DNA of 64,000 nucleotides from contig NZ_CP107254.1 of assembly GCF_029229925.1 (NCBI RefSeq), positions 1,798,001 through 1,862,000 of the forward strand. Reading direction: 5' to 3'. Positions 27,876 through 28,134 of the stretch are shown here, one piece after another. The position numbers and the translations under genes were made by a program. The notes beneath the pieces were generated by a model. The model was not told the origin of the DNA and did no database searches. It saw only the letters and a program-made list of their open reading frames with translations. The DNA comes from Halorhabdus sp. BNX81. Lineage in GTDB: Archaea; Halobacteriota; Halobacteria; Halobacteriales; Haloarculaceae. How positions within the stretch are numbered: the stretch's first letter is position 1; each line of letters starts with the position of its first letter.

Positions 27876-27950
27876 GCTCGGTTGGTGTAGTCCGGCCAAT
27901 CATCTTGGCCTTTCGAGCCGAGGACCAGGGTTCAAATCCCTGACCGAGCA
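27876..27950 (+). tRNA. tRNA-Glu (anticodon UUC)
   Basis: A complete cloverleaf can be folded. The acceptor stem pairs GCTCGGT (27876-27882) with ACCGAGC (27943-27949), and A at 27950 is the discriminator. The anticodon stem TTGGC/GCCGA encloses loop CTTTCGA with anticodon TTC at 34-36. The T stem CAGGG/CCCTG encloses TTCAAAT. The D stem is weak (three pairs). The length of 75 bases has no intron and no encoded CCA. A second copy of the last 23 bases lies 141 bases downstream. Confidence 0.93.
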
Positions 27951-28134
27951 TGGATTTTCGAGCGAACAACGTGAGCGAGAACCATCCACGCGCAGGAAAG
28001 GGATTTGAACCACGCGAGTCGCAGCGTCCGACGTGACCGCAGGGAGCGAGGACGACCGTCTCGCCACCGGGTTCAAATCCCTGACCGCGCAACGATGCTG
28101 ACCGGAAGAAGCTAAGTGGCTTTCAGTCGGGCGC
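27951..28134. other. Region behind tRNA-Glu with degenerate repeats
   Basis: No gene is supported here. The segment has a 23-base copy of the tRNA-Glu 3' end (28069-28091), an inverted copy of its T arm (AGGGATTTGAACC at 27999-28011) and a short GAGCGAAC...GTGAGCGAG hairpin motif near 27960-27985. The short ORFs called across this area read through these repeats. It looks like scar sequence from integration and loss of mobile DNA. Confidence 0.6.
28069..28091 (+). repeat. Duplicate of the tRNA-Glu 3' end (candidate attachment-site relic)
   Basis: GGGTTCAAATCCCTGACCG continues as CGCA. It matches the tRNA tail at 27928-27950 at 22 of 23 positions; the only change is A to C in the acceptor stem. 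A second copy of a tRNA 3' end is the usual trace of tyrosine-recombinase integration at a tRNA gene. No integrase gene is nearby. Confidence 0.7.

Follow-up and report, generated by a model that had tools for sequence, protein, structure and literature searches.

The arrangement behind tRNA-Glu in the analysed window, a whole stretch of 64,000 nt (G000:C1:1798001-1862000) from the 2.83-Mb genome of Halorhabdus sp. BNX81 (G000), is with near certainty one member of a large family of gene-less mini-elements located at the 3ʹ ends of haloarchaeal tRNA genes. The plan of these units, about which we are nearly as certain as one can be, comprises hairpin A, an inverted copy of the host T-arm, a structured core, and a direct copy of the host 3ʹ tail, in this order. 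We assign a probability of about 0.5 to the reading that the units are mini-elements that come and go through site-specific recombination in tRNA tails; the re-tailoring of the arms to a new host lies outside the reach of this reading. What appeared to be a private relic of one tRNA gene becomes a mini-element family with members in almost every genome of the class sample, and no description of this haloarchaeal family was found among the literature matches listed.

The tRNA-Glu locus in the window has the following features:

27290-27736, minus strand: NYN gene (PF01936)
27876-27950, plus strand: tRNA-Glu(TTC), the host gene with the copied tail (ARAGORN; Rfam RF00005, 53.3 bits)
27928-27950, plus strand: tRNA-Glu 3ʹ tail from T-arm to discriminator, the upstream copy of the direct repeat (sequence comparison)
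27955-27981, plus strand: hairpin A, immediately 3ʹ of tRNA-Glu (sequence)
27999-28011, plus strand: inverted copy of the tRNA-Glu T-arm (sequence comparison)
28012-28068, plus strand: structured core (GAGTCGCAGC ... GACCGTCTCGC), the exchangeable inner part (folding, covariation)
28069-28091, plus strand: direct copy of the tRNA-Glu 3ʹ tail, 22/23 identical (sequence comparison)
27999-28082, plus strand: match to the covariance model R1, 77.5 bits, this sequence being among the 13 on which the model was trained

The earlier note had described a 23-nt tail of tRNA-Glu repeated with one mismatch 141 nt downstream, an inverted T-arm copy between the two tails, the absence of an integrase, and an NYN gene beside the tRNA, and this description was borne out throughout. 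The 23-nt tail had only two matches in the 64-kb window at up to 3 mismatches and none in 100 shuffles, and the tail copies lie 141 nt apart, which is the length of the unit. The 13-nt inverted T-arm sequence was found at three sites in the window with at most one mismatch, all at tRNA-Glu, where 0.02 were expected. No integrase gene is present in the unit and no PF00589 match occurs within the window; both PF00589 proteins of G000 are encoded elsewhere. A further feature, absent from that note, is that the sequence from about 27990 to 28090 forms a single predicted hairpin (−57.1 kcal/mol for 27985-28095, z −5.6). In the congener G006, the site has the same tRNA and an identical hairpin A with a different core, while G005 carries a close relative of the window unit, the tail of which matches the tRNA-Glu of G005 itself. 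The upstream side of tRNA-Glu was conserved in all four relatives compared, and the downstream VTT-domain gene was kept only in G004, so the neighbouring genes were given no weight.

When the genome was searched with the window stretch, the same layout was found behind tRNA-Gly(GCC), tRNA-Ile(GAT), tRNA-Lys(CTT), and tRNA-Arg(TCG). A script was then applied to the flanks of the 41 G000 tRNAs found with RF00005, to detect cases in which an inverted copy of the T-arm precedes a direct copy of the tail, both matching that same tRNA with at most 2/9 and 3/11 mismatches, respectively. It returned 39 pairs at 29 tRNAs; after removal of that at Arg-CCT (L052), which has no core and a tail identity of 13/22, 38 units remained behind 28 of the 41 tRNAs. 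By eye, decayed or displaced units were also recognised behind tRNA-Phe, behind tRNA-Val(GAC) past its inserted element, and behind tRNA-Pro(CGG), a gene that RF00005 missed and ARAGORN found. The units are mostly about 100-160 bp long and carry no genes. Their inverted arms match the T-arm of the respective host, as with GGACTCGAA at Asn, GGAATTGAA at Lys(TTT), AGATTTGAA at Gly(GCC), and CGATTTGAA at Tyr. Stem-loops similar to the tRNA-Glu hairpin A were seen by eye in most other units, often resembling TTTTGCNGCGAACAA..CGTGAGCNGCAAA, and the main core type is GGAAGTCGCAGCC...GGACCGTCTTCC. The direct repeat is tRNA sequence running to the 3ʹ end of the gene; many copies begin near the T-loop and some are partial. 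Copies of the own tail with at least 20/22 identity occurred within 600 nt of 19/41 tRNAs in G000 and 12/42 in G006, compared with 4/410 and 2/420 in the mismatched-flank control, and upstream of the tRNAs no copy reached 18 in either genome.

The finding of the same patterned unit behind 28/41 tRNAs, with the inverted T-arm as part of the pattern, does not support the proposal that tRNA-Glu bears a relic of nested integration and loss; a single such relic at this gene was rejected on account of the same arrangement behind other tRNAs. The earlier note had also named conservation of the arrangement across distant genera as a sign of a function of the repeat itself. The architecture is indeed conserved in this way, but the sequence is not, and the arrays differ between congeners.

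Several other features were observed at these loci. A second class of insertion consists of double-hairpin stretches that lie inside tail copies and split the copied T-arm after TCC (flanks of L044, L046, L067, L057, and L062; also L091), as in AAATTCCG-hairpin-GCGTTCGC-hairpin-CTCACTCCC. Several arrays have a CCACCTTTTTAC.TCG-like stretch at their distal end, and such a stretch also lies immediately 3ʹ of tRNA-Arg(TCT) (flanks of L043, L045, L049, L066, and L077). Nucleotides 1-40 and 41-58 of tRNA-Cys (L070) recur 174 to 57 nt upstream of the gene, about 60 nt apart from each other, and are perhaps an interrupted second copy of tRNA-Cys. On the upstream side of the tRNA-Ala(GGC) locus, Rfam placed an S15-Halobacteria leader (L042 1081-1176, plus strand).

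Turnover was assessed by comparing the 3ʹ flanks of the 41 tRNAs between G000 and G006. For 11/41 tRNAs, sequence that directly follows the tRNA in one genome, from base 1 on or, at Arg-CCG, from base 4 on, was displaced by 115-355 nt in the other. The extra sequence was in G000 at Asn, Pro-TGG, Pro-GGG, Arg-CCG, and Gly-TCC, and in G006 at Thr-GGT, Gly-GCC, Ser-TGA, Met, Glu-CTC, and Arg-GCG. By eye, eight of the 11 displacements looked like insertions of unit length, with the tail copy at Pro-GGG split by a second insertion, and those at Met, Ser-TGA, and Gly-TCC admit other pairings. Filled and empty sites at these eight tRNAs, none of them the tRNA-Glu of the window, differ by one repeat plus the insert as judged by eye, and in the displaced flanks gain and loss are inseparable. 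Behind tRNA-Asn, all seven congeners were mutually different: G000 and G003 carry the G006 flank behind a unit and a tail copy, and the others share only parts of it. As G006 alone among the seven lacks a unit at base 1 here, a loss is allowed, and G006 may have lost a unit behind tRNA-Asn. The arrays thus vary from congener to congener, with unchanged tRNA genes.

The 13 G000 tRNAs without a script unit, taken as a control, gave a mixed result. Ala-TGC, Ser-GCT, Leu-CAG, and Arg-TCT (the last over 103 nt only) were collinear with G006 from base 1, Val-CAC from about base 56, and Ser-GGA further out, while 7/13, including Phe and Val-GAC with their decayed or displaced units, shared no block of at least 30 nt. 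Flank change is therefore found outside unit loci as well. The 3ʹ flanks of tRNA-Gly(CCC) and tRNA-Gly(TCC), two tRNAs with the same tail, look swapped between G000 (L041/L044) and G006 (L109/L111).

The cores share a fold. Across 13 aligned cores, standard pairs occupied 93.3% of the pair cells, compared with 83.5% in shuffles and 18-53% in slid controls. Changes on both sides were present at 10/22 pairs, of which the 6/13 in the T-arm helix are trivial because this helix copies the tRNA, and 4/9 were in the inner helices. For example, the Pro-TGG and Leu-TAG cores differ at 3/46 aligned places, and two of these together replace G-C by A-T in the inner stem. Besides tRNA and sub-threshold matches to tRNA genes, no Rfam family matched the units, either in the window at gathering score or at 18 loci at E ≤ 0.5.

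We compared 76 units of G000 and G006, leaving out the Arg-CCT first units of both genomes, of which that in G006 may be a true unit. A core similarity of at least 0.7 was reached by 12 of the 107 same-tRNA pairs and 25 of the 2743 different-tRNA pairs; for hairpin A, the corresponding numbers were 14 and 7. Near-identical cores occurred despite different arms, namely in the first units of Lys-TTT and Arg-CCG (44/47) and in Leu-TAG and Pro-TGG (43/46). At one of 30 loci, behind a tRNA-Glu (L167 1500-1590), the core was inverted between its T-arm copies. Where direct copies had drifted, the inverted arm matched the tRNA in 33 cells and the drifted copy in 3, and differed from both in 17; the script picked inverted arms by their likeness to the tRNA, which favours the 33-cell outcome, some of the arm differences are one-base insertions or belong to the second insertion class, and the counts include the Arg-CCT first units and a doubtful G006 Arg-TCT match. 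The arms look matched at birth and decaying later, an appearance favoured by the arm choice of the script. Ongoing compensatory pairing of the arms was considered and is unsupported by these cells, subject to the same selection bias. Along the arrays, with the same Arg-CCT and Arg-TCT units included, tail identity by rank was nearly flat (0.86, 0.82, and 0.88; n = 51, 23, and 3), so neither an age gradient along the arrays nor growth at the tRNA end is supported by tail identity.

In another explanation, the units would be functional trailer RNAs like RtT of E. coli, transcribed together with the tRNA, processed, and kept by selection, with the arrays growing and shrinking by unequal recombination. 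The predicted folds beat their shuffles in the window unit (z −5.6), L049 (z −4.1), and L054 (z −3.9), and less so in L051 (z −1.7); core pairing was kept through two-sided changes at the 4/9 inner pairs; and an annotated sRNA of E. coli shares the plan. We nevertheless consider this explanation unlikely, as the presence, number, and core of the units vary between congeners at many tRNAs, 13/41 tRNAs have no script unit once L052 is dropped, and the pairing of the arms is seemingly not maintained, with the 33/3/17 cells subject to the bias noted above.

The exchange of cores bears on another explanation, in which the arrays would be built and tailored passively without a recombinase, by slippage of DNA strands, by template switching at quasi-palindromes, and by gene conversion between the tails of tRNA genes. 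In its favour, the repeats form palindromes that often stand in tandem, the flanks of Gly-CCC and Gly-TCC seem to have been swapped between congeners, and the homologous unit in G005 ends in the tail of its own tRNA-Glu, as gene conversion would give; short-repeat-mediated deletions are described for Haloquadratum (PMC3119063). Such processes alone do not account for near-identical cores at tRNAs with different arms, nor for direct copies that span the T-loop to the tRNA 3ʹ end, the extent also found at an integrase element, and this explanation appears improbable to us.

To survey the class, we used the model R1. In G000, it matched 32 places at E ≤ 0.01, all behind tRNAs and 13 of them used in training; 31 lie 37-335 nt behind a same-strand RF00005 tRNA and the remaining one behind tRNA-Pro(CGG). 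Matches were found in 112 of the 116 genomes sampled from the class, with 1-34 places per genome; the filters applied miss weak matches. In the R1-negative genome G066, own-tail copies of at least 20/22 occurred at 5/34 tRNA entries, compared with 3/340 mismatched flanks, and copies of at least 18 upstream in one; the 34 entries derive from 30 loci, so that neighbouring tRNAs may count twice, and one of the five is a second tRNA-Asp according to ARAGORN. An exact 23-mer of arm plus core was present in 44 stretches among 84,980 genomes, all 44 haloarchaeal by title. A tRNA lay at most 700 nt upstream in 39/44 stretches, 31 of these 39 having a tail copy of at least 18/22. In the other 5/44, no tRNA was detected within reach; in two of these, a further T-arm copy that has the same tail precedes the stretch.

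Viral contigs were scanned with two patterns, which returned 0 and 34 stretches, and none of the 34 matched R1 at E ≤ 0.1. Four plasmid records were obtained. L213 holds a unit behind a tRNA-Glu-like sequence in which ARAGORN found no gene, and the other three show only a core-like hairpin with no tRNA found (L211 2951-3060, L212 2951-3060, and L214 2990-3050). In the haloarchaeal plasmids L211 and L212, the inner core hairpin lies within a similar intergenic repeat.

Large integrase-bearing elements are also found at tRNA genes of G000 and G006. In G000, an integrative element of about 9.3 kb at tRNA-Val(GAC) (L104 206-9466; G000:C1:2620306-2629565) carries a tyrosine recombinase. Its flanks are GTTCAAATCCGCCCCAACCCACTT, which corresponds to the T-loop-to-3ʹ-end extent plus two bases, and a displaced array lies behind it. 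The tail repeat of the units coincides in extent with this flanking repeat. By eye, the element also carries ParB-like and other ORFs. In G006, tRNA-Ala(CGC) holds a provirus-like element of about 16.6 kb (L217, about G006:C1:771700-788322) with an old array behind it; a tyrosine recombinase-like ORF is located at the far end, and the repeat shared with the tRNA is shorter (CCCCGCGAGTCCA). The ends of both elements were unlike those of the units by eye. tRNA genes are common targets of archaeal integrases, and related integrases use different tRNAs (PMC8371274). For the integrase origin proposed earlier for the tRNA-Glu repeat, the part that stands is that the repeat covers the same stretch as an integrase core, from the T-loop to the 3ʹ end, as at the tRNA-Val(GAC) element, and that the tRNA-Glu flanks differ between relatives; the part that does not is the reading as a relic.

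Extended to many tRNAs, this earlier view would take the units as deletion scars, in which integrated viruses or plasmids of full size have been reduced to their att ends. It can draw on the two large integrase elements at tRNA-Val in G000 and tRNA-Ala in G006, with old arrays displaced behind both, and on Haloquadratum, where partial tRNA duplications of 22 and 43 bp accompany provirus integration and the 22-nt duplication belongs to an integrase-bearing provirus (PMC3119063). However, the units share an architecture and a covarying core, the ends of both large elements are not unit-like, and scars would not be expected to leave the same core with a host-matched inverted arm behind 28/41 tRNAs. 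We therefore regard an origin by deletion as quite unlikely.

Under the preferred reading of gain and loss by site-specific recombination, units would enter and leave within the tRNA tail, from the T-loop to the 3ʹ end, and the tRNA would therefore always be restored and the older array shifted downstream. Recombination between T-arm copies in the same orientation would swap cores, and that between copies in opposite orientation would, rarely, invert a core. The putative recombinase would probably be a tyrosine recombinase, and viruses or plasmids that integrate at tRNA genes, or the host itself, would provide it in trans. With two PF00589 proteins in G000, none was found that acts on the units. 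The second of them, a XerA-like protein that scored below the NCBIfam cut-off and has a DUF5805 neighbour, was considered as a chromosomal mobiliser. Homologues were present in 20/20 genomes tested, including four without R1 matches; because they occur in both R1-positive and R1-negative genomes, they do not discriminate and are uninformative in this respect. Also weighing against this reading are the ends of the two large elements, at which no unit was seen, the two viral scans, which gave none, the flank change outside unit loci, and the flat tail identity along the arrays. The turnover of units at tRNA ends offers an assay for recombinases that act on archaeal tRNA genes.

A bolder version, which we find rather doubtful, takes haloarchaeal tRNA genes as the docking platforms of an integron-like cassette system, with a recombinase that would recognise the near-universal T-loop. 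Since this T-loop (GGTTCRAATCC) is almost palindromic, T-arm copies in either orientation could serve as sites. Recombination of tail with tail would add or remove a unit at the tRNA end, that of inverted arm with inverted arm would swap cores, and that of inverted with direct arm would flip the core. If this were true, the arrays would be a fast-turning cassette store or a record of past visits, and RtT of E. coli would be a bacterial outpost of the same principle.

Among known systems, the nearest layout is that of the RtT repeats of E. coli (tyrT/tyrV; rttR or 'RtT sRNA'; Rfam accession RF00391). Like the haloarchaeal units, they stand in tandem behind a tRNA, each ending in its 3ʹ tail. 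Three copies of the last 19 nt of tyrV (19/22 of the tail) lie behind this gene in E. coli K-12 with a period of 178 nt, and in each unit an inverted copy GGGGAAGGAT pairs with ATCCTTCCCC around a core, although the whole fold reaches a z of only −2.0. An inverted copy of the tRNA-Tyr T/acceptor arm was observed in RtT units (L231, NC_000913.3 1287066-1287236; L263). Copy number varies by strain, with 8 annotated units in QL57EC and 3 tail copies in MG1655, and tyrV-like places were found in 4,695 of 5,426 E. coli genomes, with a median of 4 per genome having any. In contrast to the 178-nt period of RtT at the tRNA-Tyr locus, the only one examined in E. coli, the haloarchaeal units lie behind 28/41 tRNAs in G000 and have host-specific arms and variable cores. 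As the Rfam RtT model matched the units neither in the window at gathering score nor at the 18 loci at E ≤ 0.5, they are not classed as RtT. For RtT itself, the comparison provides a second home and a testable origin, tRNA-tail recombination with host-matched inverted arms.

With haloarchaeal tRNA-integrating elements, the units share the direct tail repeat, the intact tRNA, and the old flank pushed downstream; they differ in having no genes and in their inverted T-arm and core, which were unseen at the ends of the two elements. MITEs and REP/REPIN palindromes are likewise short, gene-less, hairpin-forming, and multi-copy, and are presumably mobilised in trans, as the units would be. Unlike these, the units are tied to tRNA 3ʹ ends and duplicate about 22-25 nt of the tRNA. 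In place of the terminal inverted repeats and short target duplication of a MITE, the unit has an internal, host-matched inverted arm, and its duplication is the tRNA tail.
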